A stretch of 64,000 nucleotides of DNA, taken from positions 28,847,501 to 28,911,500 of the forward strand of contig NC_089866.1 of NCBI RefSeq assembly GCF_036373705.1, written 5' to 3'. Made by a program: the position numbers and the translations under genes. Below the pieces are notes generated by a model. That model was not told the origin of the DNA, ran no database searches, and saw nothing but the letters and a program-made list of their open reading frames with translations. Shown here piece by piece: positions 414-64,000 of the stretch. How positions within the stretch are numbered: the first letter of the stretch is position 1; each line of letters starts with the position of its first letter. Source of the DNA: Amia ocellicauda (lineage: Eukaryota; Chordata; Actinopteri; Amiiformes; Amiidae).

Positions 414-518
414 AGTGCGTAGCAAATTGACGGGATACTTTATGCTGCATTTGAGGATTGTTTTATAAGGAATAATGTACATTGCGGCTCCGATCATGGT
501 TAAAGCCATGGCAGTCAT
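327..518 (-). other. Short open frame crossing the array edge, unassigned
   Basis: A 63-codon frame starts in unit 1 (ATG at 516-518) and ends in the single-copy flank. Its first 35 residues come from repeat DNA and include a hydrophobic stretch (about residues 3 to 16) followed by an IIPYK-like segment; the rest is unique. Unit 1 and units 25 and 26 have a four-T run here, while units 2 to 24 have five Ts, which shifts the frame in those units. The frame could be a host exon whose end was caught when the unit was amplified. An in-frame stop lies four codons upstream of the ATG, I see no clear splice sites, and I recognise no family. It may be chance. Confidence 0.15.
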
Positions 519-677
519 GTTTTGCTATTTCTGGCACAGAACCTACACACACAACATCACTGCAGTGACACGTCTGTAAAACTTGAAAACAACAATAACA
601 ACACTGAAACGGATTCAGTTAAATATAGTTCTTTAAAATATGTATTTGAACCTAAAAAGTGTATTTCAAATGCTGCT

Positions 678-703
678 TTTTAAGTCGGGATTTTAAGTCG
701 GAA
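678..703. repeat. 13-bp direct repeat, two tandem copies
   Basis: TTTTAAGTCGGGA is followed at once by TTTTAAGTCGGAA, with one mismatch. It is present in all units at offset about 264, with single-base changes in units 9, 14, 20 and 26. Confidence 0.8.
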
Positions 704-1085
704 ACTTTACAACAATGAAACAGTTTTGCAATGTATTTTTCACAACCGTCTTTTACATCCTTATTTCATTCAGTTTGTGATGTGTATTGATTAATATGAT
801 TTAATAACATCTTTATTTTCTATTTGCGTAGTAGCTAGGTGTAGTGTTTGGTTGAACAATCATAATCAGAAGACTCCTAGTTTTTCAGAATAGCGGAACA
901 AAGCCCCCAGAAGTCCGCGATTCTGTCACTGTTCTCCGCAAACGCCGTTTTCATAGTGCCCTACACACCCCATCTGCACGGCTATCTACTTACAAACGGT
1001 AATTTAATTCAGCCCCATGACACATTTGAGCCACCTAACTCCGCCAGCTTCAGTCAATGAAAGCCAGCAACATGAAAAAGTACTA

Positions 1086-1096
1086 CAAGGTAAGAA
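1086..1096 (+). other. Strong 5' splice-site-like sequence
   Basis: CAAG|GTAAGA with GT at 1090-1091 is close to the animal donor consensus. The GTAAGA is kept in all 26 units. No coding exon ends here, because the upstream frame in this region is closed by stops in most units. Confidence 0.3.
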
Positions 1097-1234
1097 CATG
1101 TATTTCGCTCTCCCATTTTCACTTTAGTTCGAGTTCACTGACGATACTCTAGCCCAGCCTTGTAATGTCAGAGGACTGTGGCAGACACTGGTGAGTGTGC
1201 TGACGCTAAAATGGTCATGACAGGTAGAGGTGGA

Positions 1235-1242
1235 GGGGCCCC
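1235..1242. other. GGGGCCCC palindrome
   Basis: A perfect 8-bp GC palindrome sits at the border between the AT-rich first part and the GCTCC-rich patch. It is kept in all units. The same 8-mer occurs twice more near the end of the unit. Confidence 0.6.
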
Positions 1243-1374
1243 TGTACTGAGCTTTGATTGGGGCTCCAAAATTGACAAGCCCGACCCCAAACAATACGTA
1301 TGAAGTTTCACACTTTCTTCATTCAAGGAAACTGGACCGAACATGTGGGGGAGTTTCATGGAAGGGGCAGGGGA

Positions 1375-1500
1375 GAGAGTGGAGCAGCTCCAAAACCCCA
1401 GCTCCGGCTCCAGAACTCCCATGAAGCCGAGCACTGCCAGCTCCAGCTCCTCAACGAATAAGACTGGAACGAGCTCAGGACCCAGGAGCCGGTGCATTGG
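1375..1500. repeat. GCTCC-rich patch A
   Basis: A GC-rich, low-complexity block with repeated GCTCC and AGCTCCAGCTCC words. It shares GCTCCGGCTC and CAGCTCCAGCTCCT, in the same order and orientation, with a second block 1.1 kb further on. It creates the leucine/glutamate-rich reading of the minus-strand frame. It may be an old transposon remnant, but no terminal repeats are visible. Confidence 0.5.
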
Positions 1501-1859
1501 CCAGCATCCAATAAAGCCTAATGAAAGATATGTTGGGCATGTAGCCCTTTGTGTGGGAGAGTAGGCATTAAACGTACTCTTAATGTCACAAATCGTAGTG
1601 AGTGTAGGCTACAGAAATAAGCATGTCAATGCACTTTAATGGTTGCTTTCGCTGTCACCTCCATAAATGCACTTCATATGGTACTTGATCTTGGTACATG
1701 TAAGGGAAGTTAGATTGCGCTTAGAAAGCAGCTCTGGCATCGCATATTATCATGAAACTCAAACAAGGAAGCAAGTTGTGAATGTTTCTGTTTTAGGGAA
1801 TTTGGGGTAAACCTTACTGACAACGGGAAGCCCATATAAAGAGGCAACGGGTGAAAAGA

Positions 1860-1931
1860 AGGTTCCACCGAGATTTGAACTCAGATCACTAGATTCAAAG
1901 TCCAAAGTGCTAACCATTACACCACGGAACC
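1860..1931 (-). tRNA. tRNA-Gln-TTG: tRNA-Gln(TTG), copy 1
   Basis: Cloverleaf of 72 nt including the discriminator base: 7-bp acceptor stem, D arm with GG, seven-base anticodon loop CTTTGAA (anticodon TTG, reads CAA) and T loop TTCAAAT. It differs from the array consensus at two bases, which give G-U pairs in the anticodon and T stems, so folding should hold. A four-T Pol III terminator follows on the minus strand at 1854-1857. Confidence 0.93.
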
Positions 1932-2253
1932 ATTCTGCTTCACATTTCATGATGAGATCTCTAAACAATTCGTTTTTAAACCATGTCTGTAAATCTTTAA
2001 CAGTATTCCTTTATAATAGCGTTTGAAATATTTATGAATGTTGGGAAAGAAACAGAAAAGGGCTCAATTATGAGTGCAAATGAGTGTTCTACACGTGAAT
2101 GGATTTGTGTCAAACATAGTGATTCTTAATTGTATTCGACAAAATTGATACAGTCGTGAACAAAGATTGAAGTGAATTTGTTCAAAATCTCCATTTCAGC
2201 AGCTCCTCTAATCCATAAAGCATTGACATGATGAAGCTGTACATGATTTAATC

Positions 2254-2259
2254 AATAAA
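2254..2259 (+). other. AATAAA hexamer
   Basis: A canonical polyadenylation hexamer (CAATAAAGAC), kept in all units. A second one lies at 1510-1515 (CCAATAAAGCC). Neither follows a recognisable gene, so both may be chance in AT-rich DNA. Confidence 0.2.
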
Positions 2260-2367
2260 GACACGTATTTACACCTACCCATATTCGATTATTGATTAAT
2301 GAATTAATATATTAACACGTTTCCTTATTCCTTTGGCCTGAAAGTCAGAGTCGAGAGTGCGCCGTTA

Positions 2368-2376
2368 ACCAATGGG
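2368..2376. promoter_or_regulatory. CCAAT box match
   Basis: ACCAATGGG here, CCCAATGGG in most units, fits the core and flank preferred by the NF-Y factor. It is conserved across the array. Its target, if any, is unknown. Confidence 0.25.
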
Positions 2377-2498
2377 AGCTGTGAAATGCATGTTGTAAAA
2401 TGCTACGAGTGTTGGACGGGCAGTTTGTTTCACCATGTTAGGGTGAGGGGTGAGCGAGACCGGGCAAAAGAGGGAGCCAGAGCGGTCTGGACTAGGGT

Positions 2499-2590
2499 TG
2501 GCAATACTCGGGGTTTGCTGGCTCCGGCTCTGGAGTGGCCCCCACAGGTTCAGCTCCAGCTCCTGGCTAGTTCCGGCCAAACCAGGATGG
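2499..2590. repeat. GCTCC-rich patch B
   Basis: The second block with GCTCCGGCTC and CAGCTCCAGCTCCT, here 30 bp apart instead of 37. It contains the C-run indel (GTGGCCCCCACAGG or GTGGCACAGG) that divides the units into two families. The leading CTAGGGTTGGCAATAC recalls the ends of some hAT-like DNA transposons, but I cannot find a matching inverted end. Confidence 0.45.
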
Positions 2591-2598
2591 GGTCATTG

Positions 2599-2653
2599 TA
2601 TATAACATTATTGCTTTTATTTTAACTTGTGTTGCCTTGCAATATATTTGCAT
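2599..2653 (-). promoter_or_regulatory. Octamer plus TATA pair
   Basis: On the minus strand a perfect octamer ATGCAAAT (2646-2653) is followed about 40 bp later by TTATATA (2599-2605). Octamer elements bind POU factors such as Oct-1 and occur in snRNA, histone H2B and immunoglobulin promoters. The pair is kept in all complete units. No snRNA or histone gene follows, so a promoter role is inference only. Confidence 0.25.
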
Positions 2654-2821
2654 AGATGAAAGGACACATCTCAATCAGACGAGATCTGCTTTTGAAGCTT
2701 CAGTGTCTTGTTTAGTCTCCTTGGAAACTTTGGTGTCAATGTCTGATGTACTAATAGCTGGTGTGAGAACTGATATTATTGTATAACTCCCAAATACACG
2801 ACAATACCCACACAATGGCTT

Positions 2822-2848
2822 GGGGCCCCGAGGGGCTAAGGGGGCCCC
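2822..2848. other. GC-rich hairpin
   Basis: Two GGGGCCCC arms (2822-2829 and 2841-2848) flank an 11-nt loop with a further G4 run. Both strands could fold into an 8-bp all-GC stem. It is kept in all units, with one arm base changed in unit 15 (GGGACCCC near 37850). Confidence 0.55.
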
Positions 2849-2899
2849 TGATGCCTAGTAGCAGTGTTAGATTACAAGCTGAATTGTAACTTGCAACAA

Positions 2900-2916
2900 T
2901 TGCCTTCTTTTCTCAG
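2900..2916 (+). other. 3' splice-site-like tract at the unit junction
   Basis: TTGCCTTCTTTTCTCAG looks like a polypyrimidine tract with a CAG acceptor. The CAG straddles the junction between one unit and the next; the left-most unit lacks it because its left neighbour is unique DNA. Confidence 0.3.
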
Positions 2917-5415
2917 TGCGTAGCAAATTGACGGGATACTTTATGCTGCATTTGAGGATTGTTTTTATAAGGAATAATGAACATTGCGGCTCCGATCATT
3001 GTTAAAGCCATGGCAGTCATGTTTTGCTATTTCTGGCACAGAACCTACACACACAACATCACTGCAGTGACACGTCTGTAAAACTTGAAAACAACAATAA
3101 CAACACTGAAACGGATTCAGTTAAATATAGTTCTTTAAAATATGTATTTGAACCTAGAAAGTGTATTTCAAATGCTGCTTTTTAAGTCGGGATTTTAAGT
3201 CGGAAACTTTACAACAATGAAACAATTTTGCAATGTATTTTTCACATCCGTCTTTTACATCCTTATTTCATTCAGTTTGTGATGTGTATTGATTAATATG
3301 ATTTAATAACATCTTTATTTTCTATTTGCGTAGTAGCTAGGTGTAGTGTTTGGTTGAACAATCATAATCAGAAGACTCCTAGTTTTTCAGAATAGCGGAA
3401 CAAAGCCCCCAGAAGTCCGCGATTCTGTCACTGTTCTCCGCAACGCCGTTTTCATAGTGCCCTACACACCCCATCTCCACGGCTATCTACTTACAAACGG
3501 TAATTTAATTCAGCCCCATGACACATTTGAGCCACCTAACTCCGCCAGCTTCAGTCAATGAAAGCCAGCAACATGAAAAAGTACTACAAGGTAAGAACAT
3601 GTATTTCGCTCTCCCATTTTCACTTTAGTTCGAGTTCACTGACGATACTCTAGCCCAGCCTTGTAATGTCAGAGGACTGTGGCAGACACTGGTGAGTGTG
3701 CTGACGCTAAAATGGTCATGACAGGTAGAGGTGGAGGGGCCCCTGTTCTGAGCTTTGATTGGGGCTCCAAAATTGACAAGCCCGACCCCAAACAATACCT
3801 ATGAAGTTTCACACTTTCTTCATTCAAGGAAACTGAACCGAACATGTGGGGGAGTTTCATGGAAGGGGCAGGGGAGAGAGTGGAGCCGCTCCAAAACCCC
3901 AGCTCCGGCTCCAGAACTCCCATGAAGCCGAGCACTGCCAGCTCCAGCTCCTCAACGAATAAGACTGGAACGAGCTCAGGACCCAGGAGCCGGTGCATTG
4001 GCCAGCATCCAATAAAGCCTAATGAAAGATATGTTGGGCATGTAGCCCTTTGTGTGGGAGAGTAGGCATTGAACGTACTCTTAATGTCACAAATCGTAGT
4101 GAGTGTAGGCTACAGAAATAAGCATGTCAATGCACTTTAATGGTTGCTTTCGCTGTCACCTCCGTAAATGCACTTCATATGGTACTTGATCTTGGTACAT
4201 GTAAGGCAAGTTAGATTGCGCTTAGAAAGCAGCTCTGGCATCGCATATTATCATGAAACTCAAACAAGGAAGCAAGTTGTGAATGTTTCTGTTTTAGGGA
4301 ATTTGGGGTAAACCTTACTGACAACGGGAAGCCCATATGAAGAGGCAACAGGTGAAAAGAAGGTTCTACCGAGATTTGAACTCGGATCACTGGATTCAAA
4401 GTCCAAAGTGCTAACCATTACACCACGGAACCATTCTGTTTCACATTTCACGACGAGATCTCTAAACAATTCGTTTTTAAACCATGTCTGTAAATCTTTA
4501 ACAGTATTCCTTTATAATAGCGTTTGAAATATTTATGAATGTTGGGAAAGAAACAGAAAAGGGCTCAATTATGAGTGCAAATGAGTGTTCTACACGTGAA
4601 TGGATTTGTGTCAAACATAGTGATTCTTAATTCTATTCGACAAAATTGATACAGTCGTGAACAAAGATTGAAGTGAATTTGTTCACAATCTCCATTTCAG
4701 CAGCTCCTCTAATCCATAAAGCATTGAAATGATGAAGCTGTACTTGATTTAATCAATAAAGACACGTATTTACACCAAACCATATTCGATTATTGATTAA
4801 TGAATTAATATATTAACACGTTTCTTTATTGCTTGGGCCTGAAAGTCAGAGTCGAGAGTGCGCCGTTACCCAATGGGAGCTGTGAAATGCATGTTGTAAA
4901 ATGCTACGAGTGTTGGACGGGCAGTTTGTTTCACCATGTTAGGGTGAGGGGTGAGCGAGAGCGGGCTCTAGAGGGAGCCAGAGCGGTCTGGACTAGGGTT
5001 GGCAATACTCGGGGTTTGCTGGCTCCGGCTCTGGAGTGGCCCCCACAGGTTCAGCTCCAGCTCCTGGCTAGTTCCGGCCAAACCAGGATGGGGTCATTGT
5101 ATATAACATTATTGCTTTTATTTTAACTTGTGTTGCCTTGCAATATATTTGCATAGATGAAAGGACACATCTCAATCAGACGAGATCTGCTTTTGAAGCT
5201 TCAGTGTCTTGTTTAGTCTCCTTGGAAACTTTGGTGTCAATGTCTGATGTACTAATAGCTGGTGTGAGAACTGATATTATTGTATAACTCCCAAATACAC
5301 GACAATACCCACGCAATGGCTTGGGGCCCCGAGGGGCTAAGGGGGCCCCTGATGCCTAGTAGCAGTGTTAGATTACAAGCTGAATTGTAACTTGCAACAA
5401 TTGCCTTCTTTTCTC
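2915..5415. repeat. Unit 2 (2,501 bp)
   Basis: It is a near twin of unit 4, sharing CTGTTCTGAGC near 3744, ACTGAACCGAAC near 3835 and TTCTATTCGAC near 4632. It carries the private change CCTAGAAAG near 3155. Confidence 0.95.
4361..4432 (-). tRNA. tRNA-Gln-TTG: tRNA-Gln(TTG), copy 2, acceptor mismatch
   Basis: Consensus except G67 to A, which leaves a C6-A67 mismatch next to the G7-U66 wobble in the acceptor stem. A and B boxes and terminator are intact, so it may be transcribed, but the mature tRNA could be less stable. It shares the change with copies 4, 5 and 16. Confidence 0.85.
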
Positions 5416-7923
5416 AGTGCGTAGCAAATTGACGGGATACTTTATGCTGCATTTGAGGATTGTTTTTATAAGGAATAATGTACATTGCGGCTCCGATCAT
5501 GGTTAAAGCCATGGCAGTCATGTTTTGCTATTTCTGGCACAGAATCTCCACACACAACATCACTGCAGTGACACGTCTGTAAAACTTGAAAACAACAATA
5601 ACAACACTGAAACGGATTCAGTAAAATATAGTTCTTTAAAATATGTATTTGAACCTAAAAAGTGTATTTCAAATGCTGCTTTTTAAGTCGGGATTTTAAG
5701 TCGGAAACTTTACAACAATGAAACAATTTTGCAATGTATTTTTCACATCTGTCTTTTACATCCTTATTTCATTCAGTTTGTAATGTGTATTGATTAATAT
5801 GATTTAATAACATCTTTATTTTCTATTTGTGTAGTAGCTAGGTGTAGTGTTTGGTTGAACAATCATAATCAGAAGACTCCTAGTTTTTCAGAATAGTGGA
5901 ACAAAGCCCCCAGAAGTCCGCGATTCTGTCACTGTTCTCCGCAACGCCGTTTTCATAGTGCCCTACACACCCCATCTGCACGGCTATCTACTTACAAACG
6001 GTAATTTAATTCAGCCCCATGACACATTTGAGCCACCTAACTCTGCCAGCTTCAGTCAATGAAAGCCAGCAACATGAAAAAGTACTACAAGGTAAGAACA
6101 TGTATTTCGCTCTCCCATTTTCACTTTACTTCGAGTTCACTGACGATACTCTAGCCCAGCCTTGTAATGTCAGAGGACTGTGGCAGACACTGGTGAGTGT
6201 GCTGATGCTAAGATGGTCATGACAGGTAGAGGTGGAGGGGCCCCTGTACTGAGCTTTGATTGGGGCTCCAAAACTGACAAGCCCGACCCCAAACAATACC
6301 TATGAAGTTTCACACTTTCTTCATTCAAGGAAACTGGACCGAACATGTGGGGGAGTTTCATGGAAGGGGCAGGGGAGAGAGTGGAGCAGCTCCAAAACCC
6401 CAGCTCAGGCTCCAGAACTCCCATGAAGCCGAGCACTGCCAGCTCCAGCTCCTCAACGAATAAGACTGGAACGCGCTCAGGACCCAGGACCCAGGAGCCG
6501 GTGCATTGGCCAGCATCCAATAAAGCCTAATGAAAGATATGTTGGGCATGTAGCCCTTTGTGTGGGAGAGTAGGCATTGAACGTACTCTTAATGTCACAA
6601 ATCGTAGTGAGTGTAGGCTACAGAAATAAGCATGTCAATGCACTTTAATGGTTGCTTTCGCTGTCACCTCCGTAAATGCACTTCATATGGTACTTGATCT
6701 TGGTACATGTAAGGCAAGTTAGATTGCGCTTAGAAAGCAGCTCTGGCATCGCATATTATCATGAAACTCAAACAAGGAAGCAAGTTGTGAATGTTTCTGT
6801 TTTAGGGAATTTGGGGTAAACCTTACTGACAACGGGAAGCCCATATGAAGAGGCAACGGGTGAAAAGAAGGTTCCACCGAGATTTGAACTCGGATCACTG
6901 GATTCAAAGTCCAAAGTGCTAGACATTACACCACGGAACCATTCTGTTTCACATTTCACGATGAGATCTCTAAACAATTCGTTTTTAAACCATGTCTGTA
7001 AATCTTTAACAGTATTCCTTTATAATAGCGTTTGAAATATTTATGAATGTTGGGAAAGAAACAGAAAAGGGCTCAATTATGAGTGCAAATGAGTGTTCTA
7101 CACGTGAATGGATTTGTGTCAAACATAGTGATTCTTAATTGTATTCGACAAAATTGATACAGTCGTGAACAAAGATTGAAGTGAATTTGTTCAAAATCTC
7201 CATTTCAGCAGCTCCTCTAATCCATAAAGCATTGAAATGATGAAGCTGTACATGATTTAATCAATAAAGACACGTATTTTCACCTACCCATATTCGATTA
7301 TTGATTAATGAATTAATATATTAACACGTTTCCTTATTCCTTGGGCCTGAAAGTCAGAGTCGAGAGTGCGCCGTTACCCAATGGGAGCTGTGAAATGCAT
7401 GTTGTAAAATGCTACGAGTGTTGGACGGGCAGTTTGTTTCACCATGTTAGGGTGAGGGGTGAGCGAGAGCGGGCTCTAGAGGGAGCCAGAGCGGTCTGGA
7501 CTAGGGTTGGCAATACTCGGGGTTTGCTGGCTCCGGCTCTGGAGTGGCCCCCACAGGTTTAGCTCCAGCTCCTGGCTAGTTCCGGCCAAACCAGGATGGG
7601 GTCATTGTATATAACATTATTGCTTTTATTTTAACTTGTGTTGCCTTGCAATATATTTGCATAGATGAAAGGACACATCTCAATCAGACGAGATCTGCTT
7701 TTGAAGCTTCAGTGTCTTGTTTAGTCTCCTTGGAAACTTTGGTGTCAATGTCTGATGTACTAATAGCTGGTGTGAGAACTGATATTATTGTATAACTCCC
7801 AAATATACGACAATACCCACGCAATGGCTTGGGGCCCCGAGGGGCTAAGGGGGCCCCTGATGCCTAGTAGCAGTGTTAGATAACAAGGTGAATTGTAACT
7901 TGCAACAATTGCCTTCTTTTCTC
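5416..7923. repeat. Unit 3 (2,508 bp), with 7-bp duplication
   Basis: The extra length is a tandem GACCCAG duplication at 6481-6494, shared with units 6 and 17. It also shares GTAATGTGTATT, GTGTAGTAG and an altered tRNA D loop with those units. Confidence 0.95.
6869..6940 (-). tRNA. tRNA-Gln-TTG: tRNA-Gln(TTG), copy 3, D-loop change
   Basis: The D loop reads AATGTCTAG instead of AATGGTTAG. This removes G19, which normally pairs with C56 in the tRNA elbow and is the last base of the A box. All stems and the anticodon are intact. Likely impaired; shared with copies 6 and 17. Confidence 0.75.
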
Positions 7924-10424
7924 AGTGCGTAGCAAATTGACGGGATACTTTATGCTGCATTTGAGGATTGTTTTTATAAGGAATAATGTACATTGCGGCT
8001 CCGATCATGGTTAAAGCCATGGCAGTCATGTTTTGCTATTTCTGGCACAGAATCTCCACACACAACATCACTGCAGTGACACGTCTGTAAAACTTGAAAA
8101 CAACAATAACAACACTGAAACGGATTCAGTAAAATATAGTTCTTTAAAATATGTATTTGAACCTAAAAAGTGTATTTCAAATGCTGCTTTTTAAGTCGGG
8201 ATTTTAAGTCGGAAACTTTACAACAATGAAACAATTTTGCAATGTATTTTTCACATCCGTCTTTTACATCCTTATTTCATTCAGTTTGTGATGTGTATTG
8301 ATTAATATGATTTAATAACATCTTTATTTTCTATTTGCGTAGTAGCTAGGTGTAGTGTTTGGTTGAACAATCATAATCAGAAGACTCCTAGTTTTTCAGA
8401 ATAGCGGAACAAAGCCCCCAGAAGTCCGCGATTCTGTCACTGTTCTCCGCAACGCCGTTTTCATAGTGCCCTACACACCCCATCTGCACGGCTATCTACT
8501 TACAAACGGTAATTTAATTCAGCCCCATGACACATTTGAGCCACCTAACTCCGCCAGCTTCAGTCAATGAAAGCCAGCAACATGAAAAAGTACTACAAGG
8601 TAAGAACATGTATTTCGCTCTCCCATTTTCACTTTAGTTCGAGTTCACTGACGATACTCTAGCCCAGCCTTGTAATGTCAGAGGACTGTGGCAGACACTG
8701 GTGAGTGTGCTGACGCTAAAATGGTCATGACAGGTAGAGGTGGAGGGGCCCCTGTTCTGAGCTTTGATTGGGGCTCCAAAATTGACAAGCCCGACCCCAA
8801 ACAATACCTATGAAGTTTCACACTTTCTTCATTCAAGGAAACTGAACCGAACATGTGGGGGAGTTTCATGGAAGGGGCAGGGGAGAGAGTGGAGCCGCTC
8901 CAAAACCCCAGCTCCGGCTCCAGAACTCCCATGAAGCCGAGCACTGCCAGCTCCAGCTCCTCAACGAATAAGACTGGAACGAGCTCAGGACCCAGGAGCC
9001 GGTGCATTGGCCAGCATCCAATAAAGCCTAATGAAAGATATGTTGGGCATGTAGCCCTTTGTGTGGGAGAGTAGGCATTGAACGTACTCTTAATGTCACA
9101 AATCGTAGTGAGTGTAGGCTACAGAAATAAGCATGTCAATGCACTTTAATGGTTGCTTTCGCTGTCACCTCCGTAAATGCACTTCATATGGTACTTGATC
9201 TTGGTACATGTAAGGCAAGTTAGATTGCGCTTAGAAAGCAGCTCTGGCATCGCATATTATCATGAAACTCAAACAAGGAAGCAAGTTGTGAATGTTTCTG
9301 TTTTAGGGAATTTGGGGTAAACCTTACTGACAACGGGAAGCCCATATGAAGAGGCAACGGGTGAAAAGAAGGTTCTACCGAGATTTGAACTCGGATCACT
9401 GGATTCAAAGTCCAAAGTGCTAACCATTACACCACGGAACCATTCTGTTTCACATTTCACGACGAGATCTCTAAACAATTCGTTTTTAAACCATGTCTGT
9501 AAATCTTTAACAGTATTCCTTTATAATAGCGTTTGAAATATTTATGAATGTTGGGAAAGAAACAGAAAAGGGCTCAATTATGAGTGCAAATGAGTGTTCT
9601 ACACGTGAATGGATTTGTGTCAAACATAGTGATTCTTAATTCTATTCGACAAAATTGATACAGTCGTGAACAAAGATTGAAGTGAATTTGTTCACAATCT
9701 CCATTTCAGCAGCTCCTCTAATCCATAAAGCATTGAAATGATGAAGCTGTACTTGATTTAATCAATAAAGACACGTATTTACACCAAACCATATTCGATT
9801 ATTGATTAATGAATTAATATATTAACACGTTTCTTTATTGCTTGGGCCTGAAAGTCAGAGTCGAGAGTGCGCCGTTACCCAATGGGAGCTGTGAAATGCA
9901 TGTTGTAAAATGCTACGAGTGTTGGACGGGCAGTTTGTTTCACCATGTTAGGGTGAGGGGTGAGCGAGAGCGGGCTCTAGAGGGAGCCAGAGCGGTCTGG
10001 ACTAGGGTTGGCAATACTCGGGGTTTGCTGGCTCCGGCTCTGGAGTGGCCCCCACAGGTTCAGCTCCAGCTCCTGGCTAGTTCCGGCCAAACCAGGATGG
10101 GGTCATTGTATATAACATTATTGCTTTTATTTTAACTTGTGTTGCCTTGCAATATATTTGCATAGATGAAAGGACACATCTCAATCAGACGAGATCTGCT
10201 TTTGAAGCTTCAGTGTCTTGTTTAGTCTCCTTGGAAACTTTGGTGTCAATGTCTGATGTACTAATAGCTGGTGTGAGAACTGATATTATTGTATAACTCC
10301 CAAATACACGACAATACCCACGCAATGGCTTGGGGCCCCGAGGGGCTAAGGGGGCCCCTGATGCCTAGTAGCAGTGTTAGATTACAAGCTGAATTGTAAC
10401 TTGCAACAATTGCCTTCTTTTCTC
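7924..10424. repeat. Unit 4 (2,501 bp)
   Basis: It matches unit 2 at an offset of 5,009 bp through all the markers named there, apart from the first few hundred bases, which resemble unit 3 (AATCTCCACAC, CAGTAAAATATAG). Confidence 0.95.
9370..9441 (-). tRNA. tRNA-Gln-TTG: tRNA-Gln(TTG), copy 4, acceptor mismatch
   Basis: Same sequence as copy 2 with the C6-A67 mismatch; the copies lie 5,009 bp apart. Confidence 0.85.
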
Positions 10425-19375: not shown

Positions 19376-19379
19376 AAAA
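19376..19379 (-). terminator. Pol III terminator (copy 8)
   Basis: A TTTT run on the minus strand begins three bases past the discriminator base (context TTCTTTTCAC). Four Ts is the usual minimum for animal Pol III. The GTGAAAAGAAGG context on the plus strand is the same at all 25 copies. Confidence 0.85.
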
Positions 19380-19392
19380 GAAGGTTCCACCG

Positions 19393-19403
19393 AGATTTGA
19401 ACT
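19393..19403 (-). promoter_or_regulatory. Pol III B box (in copy 8)
   Basis: AGTTCAAATCT, tRNA positions 52 to 62, matches the GGTTCRANYCC core (TTCAAAT) with first and last positions as in other animal tRNA-Gln. It is the same in all 25 copies. Confidence 0.88.
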
Positions 19404-19435
19404 CGGATCACTGGATTCAAAGTCCAAAGTGCTAA

Positions 19436-19446
19436 CCATTACACCA
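19436..19446 (-). promoter_or_regulatory. Pol III A box (in copy 8)
   Basis: TGGTGTAATGG, tRNA positions 8 to 19, fits TRGYNNARNGG except that position 10-11 reads GT as in most tRNA-Gln. It lies within the gene. Copies 3, 6, 11, 14, 17, 20 and 22 change its last base. Confidence 0.85.
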
Positions 19447-52924: not shown

Positions 52925-55421
52925 AGTGCGTAGCAAATTGACGGGATACTTTATGCTGCATTTGAGGATTGTTTTTATAAGGAATAATGTACATTGCGGC
53001 TCCGATCATTGTTAATGCCATGGCAGTCATGTTTTGCTATTTCTGGCACAGAACCTACACACACATCATCACTGCAGTGACACGTCTGTAAAACTTGAAA
53101 ACAACAATAACAACACTGAAACGGATTCAGTTAAATATAGTTCTTTAAAATATGTATTTGAACCTAAAAAGTGTATTTCAAATGCTGCTTTTTAAGTCGG
53201 GATTTTAAGTCGGAAACTTTACAACAATGAAACAATTTTGCAATGTATTTTTCACATCCGTCTTTTACATCCTTATTTCATTCAGTTTGTGATGTGTATT
53301 GATTAATATGATTTAATAACATCCTTATTTTCTATTTGCGTAGTAGCTAGGTGTAGTGTTTGGTTGAACAATCATAATCAGAAGACTCCTAGTTTTTCAG
53401 AATAGCGGAACAAAGCCCCCAGAAGTCCGCGATTCCGTCACTGTTCTAAGCAACGCCGTTTTCATAGTGCCCTACACACCCCATCTGCACGGCTATCTAC
53501 TTACAAACGGTAATTTAATTCAGCCCCATGACACATTTGAGCCACCTAACTCCGCCAGCTTCAGTCAATGAAAGCCAGCAACATGAAAAAGTACTACAAG
53601 GTAAGAACATGTATTTCGCTCTCCCATTTTCACTTTAGTTGAAGTTCACTGACGATACTCTAGCCCAGCCTTGTAATGTCAGAGGACTGTGGCAGACACT
53701 GGTGAGTGTGCTGACGCTAAAATGGTCATGACAGGTAGAGGTGGAGGGGCCCCTGTACTGAGCTTTGATTGGGGCTCCAAAACTGACAAGCCCGACCCCA
53801 AACAATACCTATGAAGTTTCACACTTTCTTCATTCAAGGAAACTGGACCGAACATGTGGGGGAGTTTCATGGAAGGGGCAGGGGAGAGAGTGGAGCAGCT
53901 CCAAAACCCCAGCTCCGGCTCCAGAACTCCCATGAAGCCGAGCACTGCCAGCTCCAGCTCCTCAACGAATAAGACTGGAACGAGCTCAGGACCCAGGAGC
54001 CGGTGCATTGGCCAGCATCCAATAAAGCCTAATGAAAGATATGTTGGGCATGTAGCCCCTTGTGTGGGAGAGTAGGCATTGATCGTACTCTTAATGTCAC
54101 AAATCGTAGTGAGTGTAGGCTACAGAAATAAGCATGTCAATGCACTTTAATGGTTGCTTTCGCTGTCACCTCCGTAAATGCACTTCATATGGTACTTGAT
54201 CTTGGTACATGTAAGGCAAGTTAGATTGCGCTTAGAAAGCAGCTCTGGCATCGCATATTATCATGAAACTCAAACAAGGAAGCAAGTTGTGAATGTTTCT
54301 GTTTTAGGGAATTTGGGGTAAACCTTACTGACAACGGGAAGCCCATATGAAGAGGCAACGGGTGAAAAGAAGGTTCCACCGAGATTTGAACTCAGATCAC
54401 TGGATTCAAAGTCTAAAGTGCTAATCATTACACCACGGAACCATTATGTTTCATATTTCACGATGAGATCTCTAAACAATTCGTTTTTAAACCATGTCTG
54501 TAAATCTTTAACAGTATTCCTTTATAATAGCGTTTGAAATATTTATGAATGTTGGGAAAGAAACAGAAAAGGGCTCATTTATGAGTGAAAATTAGTGTTC
54601 TACACGTGAATGGATTTGTGTCAAACATAGTGATTCTTTATTGTATTCGACAAAATTGATACAGTCGTGAACAAAGATTGAAGTGAATTTGTTCAAAATC
54701 TCCATTTCAGCAGCTCCTCTAATCCATAAAGCATTGAAATGATGAAGCTGTACATGATTTAATCAATAAAGACACGTATTTACACCAAACCATATTCGAT
54801 TATTGATTAATGAATTAATATATTAACACGTTTCCTTATTCCTTGGGCCTGAAAGTTAGAGTCGAGGGTGCGCCGTTACCCAATGGGAGCTGTGAAATGC
54901 ATGTTGTAAAATGCTACGAGTGTTGGACGGGCAGTTTGTTTCACCATGTTAGGGTGAGGGGTGAGCGAGAGCGGGCTCTAGAGGGAGCCAGAGCGGTCAG
55001 GACTAGGGTTGGCAATACTCGGGGTTTGCTGGCTCCGGCTCTGGAGTGGCACAGGTTCAGCTCCAGCTCCTGGCTAGTTCCGGCCAAACCAGGATGGGGT
55101 CATTGTATATAACATTATTGCTTTTATTTTAACTTGTGTTGCCTTGCAATATATTTGCATAGATTAAAGGACACATCTCAATCAGACGAGATCTGCTTTT
55201 GAAGCTTCAGTGTCTTGTTTAGTCTCCTTGGAAACTTTGGTGTCAATGTCTGATGTACTAATAGCTAGTGTGAGAACTGATATTATTGTATAACTCCCAA
55301 ATACACGACAATACCCACGCAATGGCTTGGGGCCCCGAGGGGCTAAGGGGGCCCCTGATGCCTAGTAGCAGTGTTAGATTACAAGCTGAATTGTAACTTG
55401 CAACAATTGCCTTCTTTTCTC
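52925..55421. repeat. Unit 22 (2,497 bp)
   Basis: It is the counterpart of unit 14 at an offset of 19,995 bp. It lacks unit 14's two private changes and has ATCCTTATTTTC near 53321, which belongs to the unit 9 to 11 group. Confidence 0.95.
54371..54442 (-). tRNA. tRNA-Gln-TTG: tRNA-Gln(TTG), copy 22, degraded
   Basis: Same three changes as copy 14 (G19 to A, A29-C41 mismatch, T-stem wobble), exactly 19,995 bp away. Confidence 0.65.
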
Positions 55422-57918
55422 AGTGCGTAGCAAATTTACGGGATACTTTATGCTGCATTTGAGGATTGTTTTTATAAGGAATAATGTACATTACGGCTCC
55501 GATCATTGTTAATGCCATGGCAGTCATGTTTTGCTATTTCTGGCACAGAACCTACACACACATCATCACTGCAGTGACACGTCTGTAAAACTTGAAAACA
55601 ACAATAACAACACTGAAACGGATTCAGTTAAATATAGTTCTTTAAAATATGTATTTGAACCTAAAAAGTGTATTTCAAATGCTGCTTTTTAAGTCGGGAT
55701 TTTAAGTCGGAAACTTTACAACAATGAAACAATTTTGCAATGTATTTTTCACATCCGTCTTTTACATCCTTATTTCATTCAGTTTGTGATGTGTATTGAT
55801 TAATATGATTTAATAACATCTTTATTTTCTATTTGCGTAGTAGCTAGGTGTAGTGTTTGGTTGAACAATCATAATCAGAAGACTCCTAGTTTTTCAGAAT
55901 AGCGGAACAAAGCCCCCAGAAGTCCGCGATTCCGTCACTGTTCTCCGCAACGCCGTTTTCATAGTGCCCTACACACCCCATCTGCACGGCTATCTACTTA
56001 CAAACGGTAATTTAATTCAGCCCCATGACACATTTGAGCCACCTAACTCCGCCAGCTTCAGTCAATGAAAGCCAGCAACATGAAAAAGTACTATAAGGTA
56101 AGAACATGTAATTCGCTCTCCCATTTTCACTTTAGTTGAAGTTCACTGACGATACTCTAGCCCAGCCTTGTAATGTCAGAGGACTGTGTCAGACACTGGT
56201 GAGTGTGCTGACGCTAAAATGGTCATGACAGGTAGAGGTGGAGGGGCCCCTGTACTGAGCTTTGATTGGGGCTCCAAAATTGACAAGCCCGACCCCAAAC
56301 AATACCTATGAAGTTTCACACTTTCTTCATTCAAGGAAACTGGACCGAACATTTGGGGGAGTTTCATGGAAGGGGCAGGGGAGAGAGTGGAGCAGCTCCA
56401 AAACCCCAGCTCCGGCTCCAGAACTCCCATGAAGCCGAGCACTGCCAGCTCCAGCTCCTCAACGAATAAGACTGGAACGAGCTCAGGACCCAGGAGCCGG
56501 TGCATTGGCCAGCATCCAATAAAGCCTAATGAAAGATATGTTGGGCATGTAGCCCCTTGTGTGGGAGAGTAGGCATTGAACGTACTCTTAATGTCACAAA
56601 TCGTAGTGAGTGTAGGCTACAGAAATAAGCATGTCAATGCACTTTAATGGTTGCTTTCGCTGTCATCTCCGTAAATGCACTTCATATGGTACTTGATCTT
56701 GGTACATGTAAGGCAAGTTAGATTGCGCTTAGAAAGCAGCTCTGGCATCGCATATTATCATGAAACTCAAACAAGGAAGCAAGTTGTGAATGTTTCTGTT
56801 TTAGGGAATTTGGGGTAAACCTTACTGACAACGGGAAGCCCATATGAAGAGGCAACGGGTGAAAAGAAGGTTCCACCGAGATTTGAACTCGGATCACTGG
56901 ATTCAAAGTCCAAAGTGCTAACCATTACACCACGGAACCATTATGTTTCACATTTCACGATGAGATCTCTAAACAATTCGTTTTTAAACCATGTCTCTAA
57001 ATCTTTAACAGTATTCCTTCATAATAGCGTTTGAAATATTTATGAATGTTGGGAAAGAAACAGAAAAGGGCTCATTTATGAGTGAAAATTAGTGTTCTAC
57101 ACGTGAATGGATTTGTGTCAAACATAGTGATTCTTTATTGTATTCGACAAAATTGATACAGTCGTGAACAAAGATTGAAGTGAATTTGTTCAAAATCTCC
57201 ATTTCAGCAGCTCCTCTAATCCATAAAGTATTGAGATGATGAAGCTGTACATGATTTAATCAATAAAGACACGTATTTACACCTACCCATATTCGATTAT
57301 TGATTAATGAATTAATATATTAACACGTTTTCTTATTCCTTTGGCCGGAAAGTCAGAGTCGAGAGTGCGCTGTTACCCAATGGGAGCTGTGAAATGCATG
57401 TTGTAAAATGCTACGAGTGTTGGACGGGCAGTTTGTTTCACCATGTTAGGGTGAGGGGTGAGCGAGAGCGGGCTCTAGAGGGAGCCAGAGCGGTCAGGAC
57501 TAGGGTTGGCAATACTCGGGGTTTGCTGGCTCCGGCTCTGGAGTGGCACAGGTTCAGCTCCAGCTCCTGGCTAGTTCCGGCCAAACCAGGATGGGGTCAT
57601 TGTATATAACATTATTGCTTTTATTTTAACTTGTGTTGCCTTGCAATATATTTGCATAGATTAAAGGACACATCTCAATCAGACGAGATCTGCTTTTGAA
57701 GCTTCAGTGTCTTGTTTAGTCTCCTTGGAAACTTTGGTGTCAATGTCTGATGTACTAATAGCTAGTGTGAGAACTGATATTATTGTATAACTCCCAAATA
57801 CACGACAATACCCACGCAATGGCTTGGGGCCCCGAGGGGCTAAGGGGGCCCCTGATGCCTAGTAGCAGTGTTAGATTACAAGCTGAATTGTAACTTGCAA
57901 CAATTGCCTTCTTTTCTC
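55422..57918. repeat. Unit 23 (2,497 bp)
   Basis: It is the counterpart of unit 15 at an offset of 19,995 bp and shares the TTCATAATAGCG change near 57018. Confidence 0.95.
56868..56939 (-). tRNA. tRNA-Gln-TTG: tRNA-Gln(TTG), copy 23, consensus
   Basis: Consensus gene, counterpart of copy 15 at an offset of 19,995 bp. Confidence 0.95.
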
Positions 57919-60419
57919 AGTGCGTAGCAAATTTACGGGATACTTTATGCTGCATTTGAGGATTGTTTTTATAAGGAATAATGTACATTACGGCTCCGAT
58001 CATTGTTAATGCCATGGCAGTCATGTTTTGCTATTTCTGGCACAGAACCTACACACACATCATCACTGCAGTGACACGTCTGTAAAACTTGAAAACAACA
58101 ATAACAACACTGAAACGGATTCAGTTAAATATAGTTCTTTAAAATATGTATTTGAACCTAAAAAGTGTATTTCAAATGCTGCTTTTTAAGTCGGGATTTT
58201 AAGTCGGAAACTTTACAACAATGAAACAATTTTGCAATGTATTTTTCACATCCGTCTTTTACATCCTTATTTCATTCAGTTTGTGATGTGTATTGATTAA
58301 TATGATTTAATAACATCTTTATTTTCTATTTGCGTAGTAGCTAGGTGTAGTGTTTGGTTGAACAATCATAATCAGAAGACTCCTAGTTTTTCAGAATAGC
58401 GGAACAAAGCCCCCAGAAGTCCGCGATTCCGTCACTGTTCTCCGCAACGCCGTTTTCATAGTGCCCTACACACCCCATCTGCACGGCTATCTACTTACAA
58501 ACGGTAATTTAATTCAGCCCCATGACACATTTGAGCCACCTAACTCCGCCAGCTTCAGTCAATGAAAGCCAGCAACATGAAAAAGTACTATAAGGTAAGA
58601 ACATGTAATTCGCTCTCCCATTTTCACTTTAGTTGAAGTTCACTGACGATACTCTAGCCCAGCCTTGTAATGTCAGAGGACTGTGTCAGACACTGGTGAG
58701 TGTGCTGACGCTAAAATGGTCATGACAGGTAGAGGTGGAGGGGCCCCTGTACTGAGCTTTGATTGGGGCTCCAAAATTGACAAGCCCGACCCCAAACAAT
58801 ACCTATGAAGTTTCACACTTTCTTCATTCAAGGAAACTGGACCGAACATTTGGGGGAGTTTCATGGAAGGGGCAGGGGAGAGAGTGGAGCAGCTCCAAAA
58901 CCCCAGCTCCGGCTCCAGAACTCCCATGAAGCCGAGCACTGCCAGCTCCAGCTCCTCAACGAATAAGACTGGAACGAGCTCAGGACCCAGGAGCCGGTGC
59001 ATTGGCCAGCATCCAATAAAGCCTAATGAAAGATATGTTGGGCATGTAGCCCCTTGTATGGGAGAGTAGGCATTGAACGTACTCTTAATGTCACAAATCG
59101 TAGTGAGTGTAGGCTACAGAAATAAGCATGTCAATGCACTTTAATGGTTGCTTTCGCTGTCATCTCCGTAAATGCACTTCATATGGTACTTGATCTTGGT
59201 ACATGTAAGGCAAGTTAGATTGCGCTTAGAAAGCAGCTCTGGCATCGCATATTATCATGAAACTCAAACAAGGAAGCAAGTTGTGAATGTTTCTGTTTTA
59301 GGGAATTTGGGGTAAACCTTACTGACAACGGGAAGCCCATATGAAGAGGCAACGGGTGAAAAGAAGGTTCCACCGAGATTTGAACTCGGATCACTGGATT
59401 CAAAGTCCAAAGTGCTAACCATTACACCACGGAACCATTATGTTTCACATTTCACGATGAGGTCTCTAAACAATTCGTTTTTAAACCATGTCTCTAAATC
59501 TTTAACAGTATTCCTTTATAATAGCGTTTGAAATATTTATGAATGTTGGGAAAGAAACAGAAAAGGGCTCATTTATGAGTGAAAATTAGTGTTCTACACG
59601 TGAATGGATTTGTGTCAAACATAGTGATTCTTTATTGTATTCGACAAAATTGATACAGTCGTGAACAAAGATTGAAGTGAATTTGTTCAAAATCTCCATT
59701 TCAGCAGCTCCTCTAATCCATAAAGCATTGAAATGATGAACCTGTACATGATTTAATCAATAAAGACACGTATTTACACCTACCCATATTCGATTATTGA
59801 TTAATGAATTAATATATTAACATGTTTCCTAATTCCTTGGGCCTGAAAGTCAGAGTCGAGAGTGCGCCGTTACCCAATGGGAGCTGTGAAATGCATGTTG
59901 TAAAATGCTACGAGTGTTGGACGGGCAGTTTGTTTCACCATGTTAGGGTGAGGGGTGAGCGAGAGCGGGCTCTAGAGGGAGCCAGAGCGGTCTGGACTAG
60001 GGTTGGCAATACTCGGGGTTTGCTGGCTCCGGCTCTGGAGTGGCCCCCACAGGTTCAGCTCCAGCTCCTGGCTAGTTCCGGCCAAACCAGGATGGGGTCA
60101 TTGTATATAACATTATTGCTTTTATTTTAACTTGTGTTGCCGTGCAATATATTTGCATAGATGAAAGGACAAATCTCAATCAGACGAGATCTGCTTTTGA
60201 AACTTCAGTGTCTTGTTTAGTCTCCTTGGAAACTTTGGTGTCAATGTCTGATGTACTAATAGCTGGTGTGAGAACTGATATTATTGTATAAATCCCAAAT
60301 ACACGACAATACCCACGCAATGGCTTGGGGCCCCGAGGGGCTAAGGGGGCCCCTGATGCCTAGTAGCAGTGTTAGATTACAAGCTGAATAGTAACTTGCA
60401 ACAATTTCCTTCTTTTCTC
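57919..60419. repeat. Unit 24 (2,501 bp), hybrid of unit-23 and unit-25 types
   Basis: It matches unit 23 through the tRNA and to about 59640, then unit 25 (GATGAACCTGTAC near 59735, ACATGTTTCCTAATTCC near 59820, long C run near 60046). ATGAGGTCTC near 59456 is private. Confidence 0.95.
59365..59436 (-). tRNA. tRNA-Gln-TTG: tRNA-Gln(TTG), copy 24, consensus
   Basis: Consensus gene, same as copy 23 in the neighbouring unit 2,497 bp away. Confidence 0.95.
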
Positions 60420-62919
60420 AGTGCGTAGCAAATTGACGGGATACTTTATGCTGCATTTGAGGATTGTTTTATAAGGAATAATGTACATTGCGGCTCCGAT
60501 CATGGTTAAAGCCATGGCAGTCATGTTTTGCTATTTCTGGCACAGAACCTACACACACATCATCACTGCAGTGACACGTCTGTAAAACTTGAAAACAACA
60601 ATAACAACACTGAAACGGATTCAGTTAAATATAGTTCTTTAAAATATGTATTTGAACCTAAAAAGTGTATTTCAAATGCTGCTTTTTAAGTCGGGATTTT
60701 AAGTCGGAAACTTTACAACAATGAAACAATTTTGCAATGTATTTTTCACATCCGTCTTTTACATCCTTATTTCATTCAGTTTGTGATGTGTATTGATTAA
60801 TATGATTTAATAACATCTTTATTTTCTATTTGCGTAGTAGCTAGGTGTAGTGTTTGGTTGAACAATCATAATCAGAAGACTCCTATTTTTTCAGAATAGC
60901 GGAACAAAGCCCCCAGAAGTCCACGATTCTGTCACTGTTCTCCGCAACGCCGTTTTCATAGTGCCCTACACACCCCATCTGCACGGCTATCTACTTACAA
61001 ACGGTAATTTAATTCAGCCCCATGACACATTTGAGCCACCTAACTCCGCCAGCTTCAGTCAATGAAAGCCAGCAACATGAAAAAGTACTACAAGGTAAGA
61101 ACATGTATTTCGCTCTCCCATTTTCACTTTAGTTCGAGTTCACTGACAATACTCTAGCCCAGCCTTGTAATGTCAGAGGACTGTGGCAGACACTGGTGAG
61201 TGTGCTGACGCTAAAATGGTCATGACAGGTAGAGGTGGAGGGGCCCCTGTACTGAGCTTTGATTGGGGCTCCAAAATTGACAAGCCCGACCCCAAACAAT
61301 ACCTATGAAGTTTCACACTTTCTTCATTCAAGGAAACTGGACCGAACATGTGGGGGAGTTTCATGGAAGGGGCAGGGGAGAGAGTGGAGCAGCTCCAAAA
61401 CCCCAGCTCCGGCTCCAGAACTCCCATGAAGCCGAGCACTGCCAGCTCCAGCTCCTCAACGAATAAGACTGGAACGAGCTCAGGACCCAGGAGCCGGTGC
61501 ATTGGCCAGCATCCAATAAAGCCTAATGAAAGATATGTTGGGCATGTAGCCCTTTGTGTGGGAGAGTAGGCATTGAACGTACTCTTAATGTCACAAATCG
61601 TAGTGAGTGTAGGCTACAGAAATAAGCATGTCAATGCACTTTAATGGTTGCTTTCGCTGTCACCTCCGTAAATGCACTTCATATGGTACTTGATCTTGGT
61701 ACATGTAAGGCAAGTTAGATTGCGCTTAGAAAGCAGCTCTGGCATCGCATATTATCATGAAACTCAAACAAGGAAGCAATTTGTGAATGTTTCTGTTTTA
61801 GGGAATTTGGGGTAAACCTTACTGACAACGGGAAGCCCATATGAAGAGGCAACGGGTGAAAAGAAGGTTCCACCGAGATTTGAACTCGAATCACTGGATT
61901 CAAAGTCCAAAGTGCTAACCATTACACCACGGAACCATTCTTTTTCACATTTCACGATGTGATCTCTAAACAATTCGTTTTTAAACCATGTCTGTAAATC
62001 TTTAACAGTATTCCTTTATAATAGCGTTTGAAATATTTATGAATGTTGGGAGAGAAACAGAAAAGGGCTCAATTATGAGTGCAAATGAGTGTTCTACACG
62101 TGAATGGATTTGTGTCAAACATAGTGATTCTTAATTGTATTCGACAAAATTGATACAGTCGTGAACAAAGATTGAAGTGAATTTGTTCAAAATCTCCATT
62201 TCAGCAGCTCCTCTAATCCATAAAGCATTGAAATGATGAACCTGTACATGATTTAATCAATAAAGACACGTATTTACACCTACCCATATTCGATTATTGA
62301 TTAATGAATTAATATATTAACATGTTTCCTAATTCCTTGGGCCTGAAAGTCAGAGTCGAGAGTGCGCCGTTACCCAATGGGAGCTGTGAAATGCATGTTG
62401 TAAAATGCTACGAGTGTTGGACGGGCAGTTTGTTTCACCATGTTAGGGTGAGGGGTGAGCGAGAGCGGGCTCTAGAGGGAGCCAGAGCGGTCTGGACTAG
62501 GGTTGGCAATACTCGGGGTTTGCTGGCTCCGGCTCTGGAGTGGCCCCCACAGGTTCAGCTCCAGCTCCTGGCTAGTTCCGGCCAAACCAGGATGGGGTCA
62601 TTGTATATAACATTATTGCTTTTATTTTAACTTGTGTTGCCGTGCAATATATTTGCATAGATGAAAGGACAAATCTCAATCAGACGAGATCTGCTTTTGA
62701 AACTTCAGTGTCTTGTTTAGTCTCCTTGGAAACTTTGGTGTCAATGTCTGATGTACTAATAGCTGGTGTGAGAACTGATATTATTGTATAAATCCCAAAT
62801 ACACGACAATACCCACGCAATGGCTTGGGGCCCCGAGGGGCTAAGGGGGCCCCTGATGCCTAGTAGCAGTGTTAGATTACAAGCTGAATAGTAACTTGCA
62901 ACAATTTCCTTCTTTTCTC
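60420..62919. repeat. Unit 25 (2,500 bp)
   Basis: It has the four-T run near 60469, as in unit 1. Its last 700 bp are almost the same as the end of unit 24 (AAATCTCAATC, GAAACTTCAGTG, AATAGTAACTTG). Confidence 0.95.
61865..61936 (-). tRNA. tRNA-Gln-TTG: tRNA-Gln(TTG), copy 25
   Basis: One private change, C49 to T, giving a U49-G65 wobble at the top of the T stem. It should fold normally. The leader has CCATTCTTTTTCAC on the plus strand, also private. Confidence 0.93.
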
Positions 62920-64000
62920 AGTGCGTAGCAAATTGACGGGATACTTTATGCTGCATTTGAGGATTGTTTTATAAGGAATAATGTACATTGCGGCTCCGAT
63001 CATGGTTAAAGCCATGGCAGTCATGTTTTGCTATTTCTGGCACAGAACCTACACACACATCATCACTGCAGTGACACGTCTGTAAAACTTGAAAACAACA
63101 ATAACAACACTGAAACGGATTCAGTTAAATATAGTTCTTTAAAATATGTATTTGAACCTAAAAAGTGTATTTCAAATGCTGCTTTTTAATTCGGGATTTT
63201 AAGTCGGAAACTTTACAACAATGAAACAATTTTGCAATGTATTTTTCACATCCGTCTTTTACATCCTTATTTCATTCAGTTTGTGATGTGTATTGATTAA
63301 TATGATTTAATAACATCTTTATTTTCTATTTGCGTAGTAGCTAGGTGTAGTGTTTGGTTGAACAATCATAATCAGAAGACTCCTATTTTTTCAGAATAGC
63401 GGAACAAAGCCCCCAGAAGTCCACGATTCTGTCACTGTTCTCCGCAACGCCGTTTTCATAGTGCCCTACACACCCCATCTGCACGGCTATCTACTTACAA
63501 ACGGTAATTTAATTCAGCCCCATGACACATTTGAGCCACCTAACTCCGCCAGCTTCAGTCAATGAAAGCCAGCAACATGAAAAAGTACTACAAGGTAAGA
63601 ACATGTATTTCGCTCTCCCATTTTCACTTTAGTTCGAGTTCACTGACGATACTCTAGCCCAGACTTGTAATGTCAGAGGACTGTGGCAGACACTGGTGAG
63701 TGTGCTGACGCTAAAATGGTCATGACAGGTAGAGGTGGAGGGGCCCCTGTGCAGAGCTTTGATTGGGGCTCCAAAATTGACAAGCCCGACCCCAAACAAT
63801 ACCTATGAAGTTTCACACTTTCTTCATTCAAGGAAACTGGACCGAACATGTGGGGGAGTTTCATGGAAGGGGCAGGGGAGAGAGTGGAGCAGCTCCAAAA
63901 CCCCAGCTCCGGCTCCAGAACTCCCATGAAGCCGAGCACTGCCAGCTCCAGCTCCTCAACGAATAAGACTGGAACGAGCTCAGGACCCAGGAGCCGGTGC
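62920..64000. repeat. Unit 26, cut by the window end (1,081 bp)
   Basis: This is the first part of a unit like unit 25, again with the four-T run. The window ends before its tRNA gene, expected near 64366. TTTTTAATTCGGG near 63184 and CTGTGCAGAGC near 63748 are private. Confidence 0.95.

Follow-up and report, generated by a model that had tools for sequence, protein, structure and literature searches.

Repeated transfer RNA (tRNA) genes described in human, zebrafish, Entamoeba and Arabidopsis provide the closest comparisons for a tandem array found in Amia ocellicauda, in which a unit of about 2.5 kb carries one glutamine tRNA gene with anticodon TTG, tRNA-Gln(TTG). The array lies on contig NC_089866.1 (C23) and was examined in a window, i.e. 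the whole stretch of DNA that was analyzed, of 64,000 nucleotides (C23:28,847,501-28,911,500). The human tRNA gene (tDNA) macrosatellite at 1q23.3 is reported to resemble it in a long head-to-tail unit (7.3 kb in human) of ~98% identity, with mobile-element fragments within the unit and tRNA genes as a small fraction of it (PMC4041453). The human unit is described as GC-rich and CTCF-bound, with five tRNA genes that serve four amino acids (PMC4041453), whereas the array on C23 has one tRNA-Gln(TTG) per 2.5-kb unit of 42% GC, and a crude scan gave no good CTCF-like match. Clustering is reported for 65% of tRNA genes and pseudogenes in zebrafish and 87% in stickleback (PMC2888827). The clusters of zebrafish chromosome 4 are likewise described as tRNA genes in mobile-element-rich, highly repetitive DNA, mostly on one chromosome arm (PMC11417395, PMC11075544); in Amia, arrays occur on at least five contigs. 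Unlike zebrafish chromosome 4, the C23 units hold a single isoacceptor, and the likeness would be one of repetitive context. Isodecoders of the zebrafish egg and early embryo are reported in repetitive regions, those rising later are scattered, and constantly expressed ones are found in either context (PMC11417395); that the tRNA genes of chromosome 4 are maternal has been put forward as a hypothesis (PMC11075544).

Many separate tandem tRNA arrays, with gene contents particular to each, are also described in Entamoeba, with up to five tRNA genes per unit and, in E. histolytica, short tandem repeats between genes (PMC2652664). The C23 array differs in a long spacer that is partly a dispersed repeat, and Tandem Repeats Finder, for which a 2.5-kb period is out of range, found no tandem repeat of period <=500 in the window. 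In the Arabidopsis tRNA-Cys cluster, tRNA genes again lie inside repeated units with a pseudogene copy and mobile-element traces, although the units are 0.4 kb with four genes (PMC10701932), against 2.5 kb and 35 genes on C23. The Arabidopsis Ser/Tyr cluster is reported as an array that is inactive across most tissues and becomes active again in special cells (PMC12308677). The C23 array belongs to these known tandem tRNA arrays and at present is a well-formed example of the type, set apart by one isoacceptor per long unit and by the occurrence of several arrays on different chromosomes. The tDNA of Xenopus laevis is a further member, a tandem repeat of a few kb with several different tRNA genes per unit. 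No single-isoacceptor tRNA macrosatellite of a fish was found in the open-licence literature. An initial sequence-only reading of the window had likened the array to ribosomal DNA (rDNA) or 5S arrays more than to usual tRNA clusters; the macrosatellite scale is indeed comparable, but the arrangement is not special to this locus, given the other arrays here and elsewhere. With moderate confidence, drawn from sequence and from analogy with zebrafish, the locus is read here as a redundant tandem tRNA gene array that would be transcribed in the germ line and would likely supply a tRNA-Gln stock to the egg and early embryo.

In order to delimit the array, ARAGORN (for tRNA genes) and the Rfam profile RF00005 were run on the window, unit starts were set by anchor search followed by alignment and an identity matrix, and 90 kb around the window were read. 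Searches beyond the locus covered the genome of 988 Mb in 385 contigs. The window contains 25 complete head-to-tail units (2,496-2,508 bp, pairwise identity 97.6-100.0%), with starts from 414 to 60420 and a 26th unit truncated by the window edge. As the sequence-only reading had proposed, all 25 share one orientation and contain exactly one minus-strand tRNA-Gln(TTG) each according to ARAGORN, and the same 25 genes were matched by RF00005 at 41.2-65.1 bits.

414..64000, no strand assigned: tandem array of 25 complete units and a partial 26th (anchor search, alignment, identity matrix), running on to C23:28,964,674
Unit starts 1-13: 414, 2915, 5416, 7924, 10425, 12926, 15434, 17936, 20433, 22930, 25427, 27927, 30433
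Unit starts 14-26: 32930, 35427, 37924, 40425, 42933, 45435, 47932, 50428, 52925, 55422, 57919, 60420, 62920

The whole array spans 117,954 bp (C23:28,846,721-28,964,674) and holds 35 tRNA-Gln(TTG) genes. It thus continues past the window, as had been suggested, but not as a clean 2.5-kb repeat. Units in the window are uniform; composite longer units and tRNA-less unit copies occur in the right part beyond it, where spacings include 2.3, 3.1, 3.3, 3.7, 4.0 and 4.1 kb. In this part lie 10 copies of the tRNA, and by a module map 11 unit copies are devoid of it, six lacking unit positions 480-1971 and five starting at 1530. The longest exact repeats in the array are 3,390 bp at a lag of 19,995 and 2,477 bp at a lag of 27,499. 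Furthermore, the nearest neighbor of a unit switches along that single unit's length, and variant patterns are common to several units. Together, block duplications and switching neighbors indicate unequal crossing-over and conversion, and the units are homogenized by exchange, i.e. by concerted evolution; the earlier claim that similarity is kept by exchange is borne out. Identity between some long blocks at a distance might instead suggest that the assembler inflated one or a few units. This is scarcely credible, since the 35 copies comprise 13 tRNA sequences, units carry specific variants, and both array ends lie within one contig of 29.8 Mb.

The unit is composed of three segments, and an additional module, X, lies at the left edge of the array.

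1..413, no strand assigned: right part of module X (782 bp; the whole module extends from window position -368 to 413)
414..1450, no strand assigned: unit 1 positions 1-1037, belonging to an old dispersed repeat (pieces listed at other places show 72-91% identity)
1451..2737, no strand assigned: unit 1 positions 1038-2324, the tRNA-bearing segment, array-only among the matches listed
2738..2914, no strand assigned: unit 1 positions 2325-2501, the other end of the dispersed repeat, which directly adjoins the start of the following unit wherever X is absent

A whole-unit search (best 15 of 993 candidates) returned the right array end and 14 places on 10 other contigs. These dispersed places, 72-91% identical, match unit positions 2-875 or portions of them, and some also match portions of 876-1036 and of 2325-2501. 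In contrast to this dispersed portion, for the 849 bp flanking the tRNA on one side 50 of 50 listed matches fell within the array (best 40 of 399 candidates). The opposite flank of 560 bp gave 35 full-length array matches among the best 40 of 241 candidates, and the remaining five were short, dispersed and within query positions 1-151, ending by unit position 1037. Weak dispersed copies of the tRNA-bearing segment may escape such best-scoring sets, and among the matches listed the unit is, as judged from these comparisons, an array-only tRNA-bearing segment fused to an old dispersed repeat. A tRNA-derived short interspersed nuclear element (SINE) or other dispersed tRNA element was rejected as the source: tRNA matches (best 40 of 175) were the 35 array genes and five on contig C25, and the segments flanking the tRNA matched the array alone among the matches listed. 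A coding mobile element was also considered and rejected. An 88-amino-acid frame that lies in the composite unit, for the most part within X, had one Pfam match, at E 0.15, which fails the cut-off, and a 162-amino-acid frame beside one dispersed copy had zero Pfam matches.

Module X occurs in composite units and in dispersed relatives and is found in none of the 2.5-kb units. In composite units it sits between the unit end and the next unit start, and at the left array edge another unit's end lies before it, outside the window. A unit does begin at position 414, where the array had been said to start, but the repeat extends further left. X-like sequence adjoins the unit-start match in 6/6 dispersed relatives examined, and the unit-end part lies on the far side of the X-like sequence in 3/6. 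The presence of X in dispersed relatives suggests that X is most likely ancestral and that the 2.5-kb unit is the form that lost it; at the loss junction, AGT is common to both ends. Right-part units also contain a module Y (436 bp or a longer form) after unit position 2007, with content read as a degenerate sequence resembling tRNA-Glu and a 3' half-gene of tRNA-Gln. These tRNA-like sequences scored 18.8 and 18.0 bits versus the Rfam gathering score of 29. Among the six longest frames on each side of the array, several resembled Tc1/mariner transposases (two of these frames having 346 codons) and retroelement pol.

The anticodon TTG and a TCTTTTC run directly downstream are present in 35/35 copies, and no change was found in any copy within a stretch that we take to be the B box. 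The 35 copies represent 13 distinct tRNA sequences, of which the consensus is the commonest (12/35 identical to it). In the window, eight of the 25 copies are consensus, four have pair-preserving changes only, and 13 have changes judged from the sequence to be damaging: a broken acceptor pair in four, a changed G19 in five, a changed G19 with a broken anticodon-stem pair in two, and anticodon-stem changes with an inserted T in two. The 10 copies beyond the window comprise four consensus, one with one pair-preserving change, one with its last base changed, and four with a broken pair. Position names such as D-loop G19 are those of standard tRNA numbering. Features below were assigned by ARAGORN, RF00005 and copy comparison or, for copies 8, 9 and 19, by RF00005 and copy comparison; each is a tRNA-Gln(TTG).

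1860..1931, minus strand: copy 1, pair-preserving changes only
4361..4432, minus strand: copy 2, acceptor-stem pair 6 broken
6869..6940, minus strand: copy 3, D-loop G19 changed
9370..9441, minus strand: copy 4, acceptor-stem pair 6 broken
11871..11942, minus strand: copy 5, acceptor-stem pair 6 broken
14379..14450, minus strand: copy 6, G19 changed
16880..16952, minus strand: copy 7, inserted T (internal six-T run) with two changes in the anticodon stem
19382..19453, minus strand: copy 8, consensus
21879..21950, minus strand: copy 9, consensus
24376..24447, minus strand: copy 10, consensus
26873..26944, minus strand: copy 11, G19 changed
29382..29453, minus strand: copy 12, pair-preserving changes only
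31879..31950, minus strand: copy 13, pair-preserving changes only
34376..34447, minus strand: copy 14, G19 changed and anticodon-stem pair broken
36873..36944, minus strand: copy 15, consensus
39370..39441, minus strand: copy 16, acceptor-stem pair 6 broken
41878..41949, minus strand: copy 17, G19 changed
44379..44451, minus strand: copy 18, inserted T (internal six-T run) with two changes in the anticodon stem
46881..46952, minus strand: copy 19, consensus
49378..49449, minus strand: copy 20, G19 changed
51874..51945, minus strand: copy 21, consensus
54371..54442, minus strand: copy 22, G19 changed and anticodon-stem pair broken
56868..56939, minus strand: copy 23, consensus
59365..59436, minus strand: copy 24, consensus
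61865..61936, minus strand: copy 25, one pair-preserving change

Variability along the repeat was counted in the 25 aligned complete units (the partial 26th being excluded), with columns more than 100 bp from the tRNA on either side as background. The densest variation sits directly at the gene.

1932..1951, minus strand: most variable 20-column window of the repeat, the 20 bp upstream (in the sense direction) of the tRNA in unit 1 (25-unit alignment)

Nine of these 20 columns are variable, versus 134/2,246 in the background (Fisher 1.1e-6). Nine variable columns were reached by only two of 2,519 such windows, the upstream one and one overlapping it, and the next densest separate windows held six. 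When variable columns were shuffled uniformly, a maximum of at least nine arose in 0.12% of 5,000 trials. Within 26 bp upstream, 12 variable sites fall into 11 distinct unit sets, which suggests mostly separate mutation events. The tRNA body, with 9/73 variable columns, is less variable than both adjoining 20-bp flanks together (13/40; p 0.013). Among the 10 copies beyond the window, variable sites upstream numbered 8/50 in the first 50 bp and 6/50 in the next 50, with 4/72 in the body, 1/20 directly downstream and 21/600 at 101-400 bp. It has been reported that tRNA gene bodies vary little and that their immediate flanks mutate faster via transcription (PMC8113476, citing Thornlow and co-workers). 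Since only germ-line mutations are inherited, the upstream peak points to germ-line transcription, and transcription of the array by RNA polymerase III (Pol III) in the germ line, under weak selection, is indirectly supported.

A sequence of events consistent with these observations can be outlined. A tRNA-Gln(TTG) locus became joined to an old dispersed repeat and was multiplied head to tail by unequal exchange, as the unit make-up and block duplications show. The 2.5-kb unit would be a shortened form from which module X was lost before the spread, as the X-bearing relatives support. Pol III transcription in the germ line may then have left the mutation peak beside the gene, for which support is indirect. 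Weak selection per copy would have let about half of the copies decay with the consensus still commonest. By analogy with zebrafish, the product would be a bulk tRNA-Gln stock on which the egg and the early embryo draw, isolated genes presumably serving later cells. If expression is mainly in the oocyte, the zebrafish observation on maternal tRNAs would be extended to a genome with arrays on several chromosomes, and why maternal translation uses repeated genes would become testable. With 35 copies in 13 versions, the array also lends itself to questions of which of its genes are active and at what time, and of how mutation is shaped by transcription.

Several points weigh against a germ-line and maternal role. 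Damaging changes, as judged from sequence, affect 17/35 copies, and the maternal component is an extrapolation from zebrafish. The uniform shuffle applied to the peak takes columns as independent. The tRNA body is somewhat more variable than the distant spacer (9/73 vs 134/2,246, p 0.04), and also more variable than all other columns (p 0.055). A body no less variable than the distant spacer suggests weak selection on individual copies; together with the damaged copies, it gives no sign of strong selection for tRNA output. The array on C25 (10 of 11 sites used) showed 4/20 variable sites upstream, from two sequence types only, 5/72 in the body, 0/20 directly downstream and 6/50 at 51-100 bp downstream; it does not reproduce the peak cleanly and, with only two upstream sequence types, provides no independent test of it.

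The decay and the variability of the body relative to distant spacer would be expected if the tRNA were a passenger, which rode in with the first unit of an exchange-driven macrosatellite and decays without relevant output; the 11 tRNA-less unit copies of the right half, which multiplied too, agree with this. This account is a close second to the germ-line reading and is somewhat unlikely. A passenger gene fits poorly with a body less variable than its own flanks, with 12/35 identical copies and an anticodon and downstream T run kept in 35/35, and with a densest mutation window located directly at the gene. Of the options left open by the sequence-only reading, the passenger role gained from the decay of about half of the copies, and tRNA supply gained indirectly from the mutation peak and the zebrafish comparison.

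The third option, a boundary or architectural element bound by TFIIIC, Pol III or an insulator protein and partitioning chromatin, is highly improbable. The unchanged presumed B box in 35/35 copies is in its favor, as is the human tDNA at 1q23.3, for which such a role has been proposed with CTCF (PMC4041453). The sole test here, a crude scan of one unit with a CTCF core, gave no match with fewer than two mismatches and lends it no support.

Genes for tRNA-Gln were also sought across the genome. A tRNA-Gln query (best 40 of 175) returned the 35 array genes first, followed by five at 93% on C25. In a 100-kb portion of C25, lags of, for example, 4.9 and 5.9 kb separated long repeats, and six complete readable tRNA-Gln genes were present (four TTG and two CTG); tRNA-Gln repeats on this contig occupy C25:3.06-3.34 Mb. 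The C25 and C23 arrays share the tRNA alone, their spacers being unrelated, and unlike in the C23 array no T run was present in the 40 bp directly downstream of the C25 copies inspected. A Gln arm pattern with <=2 mismatches had 151 matches genome-wide and a Glu arm pattern with <=3 mismatches also had 151, with zero in the controls (reversed, for Gln); placements for each rest on the first 100 of the 151 matches. The 45 exact Gln arm matches were distributed as 24 in the C23 array and, as lower bounds, at least eight on C25, at least 12 on the unplaced contigs C102, C162, C183 and C367, and at least one alone on C28.

A share of 24/45 exact Gln-TTG arm matches, the others being a lower bound, could suggest that the tRNA-Gln(UUG) pool in every tissue is supplied by the array, with copy number under dosage selection. 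Such general supply is improbable: tRNA-Gln arrays also occur on C25 and C6, which means that the C23 array is not the sole source, and about half of its copies are damaged.

Partly regular spacing was observed in further arrays, and irregular spacings in the C6, C20, C25, C27 and C102 lists may reflect unlisted copies. On C102, 6/8 adjacent Gln spacings were 5,886-5,899 bp. At C6:49.4-50.6 Mb, 7/7 adjacent Gln spacings under 4 kb were 3,514-3,524 bp (27 one-mismatch places used, four listed two-mismatch places excluded), and 15/20 adjacent Glu spacings under 4 kb were 3,515-3,523 bp. Gln-Glu pairs within 400 bp on this contig were 210-211 bp apart in 16/18 cases and 166 bp apart in 2/18. The C6 repeat, with tRNA-Gln(CTG) and tRNA-Glu on opposite strands ~210 bp apart and a period of ~3.52 kb, extends over more than 1.1 Mb (C6:49.43-50.63 Mb). 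At C20:5.52-5.89 Mb, 6/19 adjacent tRNA-Glu spacings were 5,012-5,043 bp (20 listed places with zero or one mismatch). At C27:4.25-4.55 Mb there were at least 44 RF00005 places (best 63 of 56,076 loose candidates), with 11/43 adjacent spacings of 2,027-2,028 bp and 6/43 of 2,480-2,481 bp.

The C23 array appears to be one among several tRNA arrays whose spacing, of 2-6 kb, is partly regular; the others lie on C6, C20, C25 and C27. A broader and tentative proposal, which we regard as doubtful when taken as a whole, is that much of the tRNA gene set has been parcelled out into distinct macrosatellites, every one dedicated to a particular tRNA type or pair: C23 would hold Gln-TTG, C25 Gln, C6 Gln-CTG together with Glu, C20 Glu and C27 an unassigned type. 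These may have arisen independently on unrelated spacers (a comparison that covers the C25 spacer) and might act as germ-line tRNA stocks, in which germ-line transcription raises mutation, exchange spreads or removes copies, and selection on whole-array dose lets intact and broken copies coexist. Separately, a single listed tRNA-Glu-like match was located at C23:28,814,299, ~32 kb to the left of the array.

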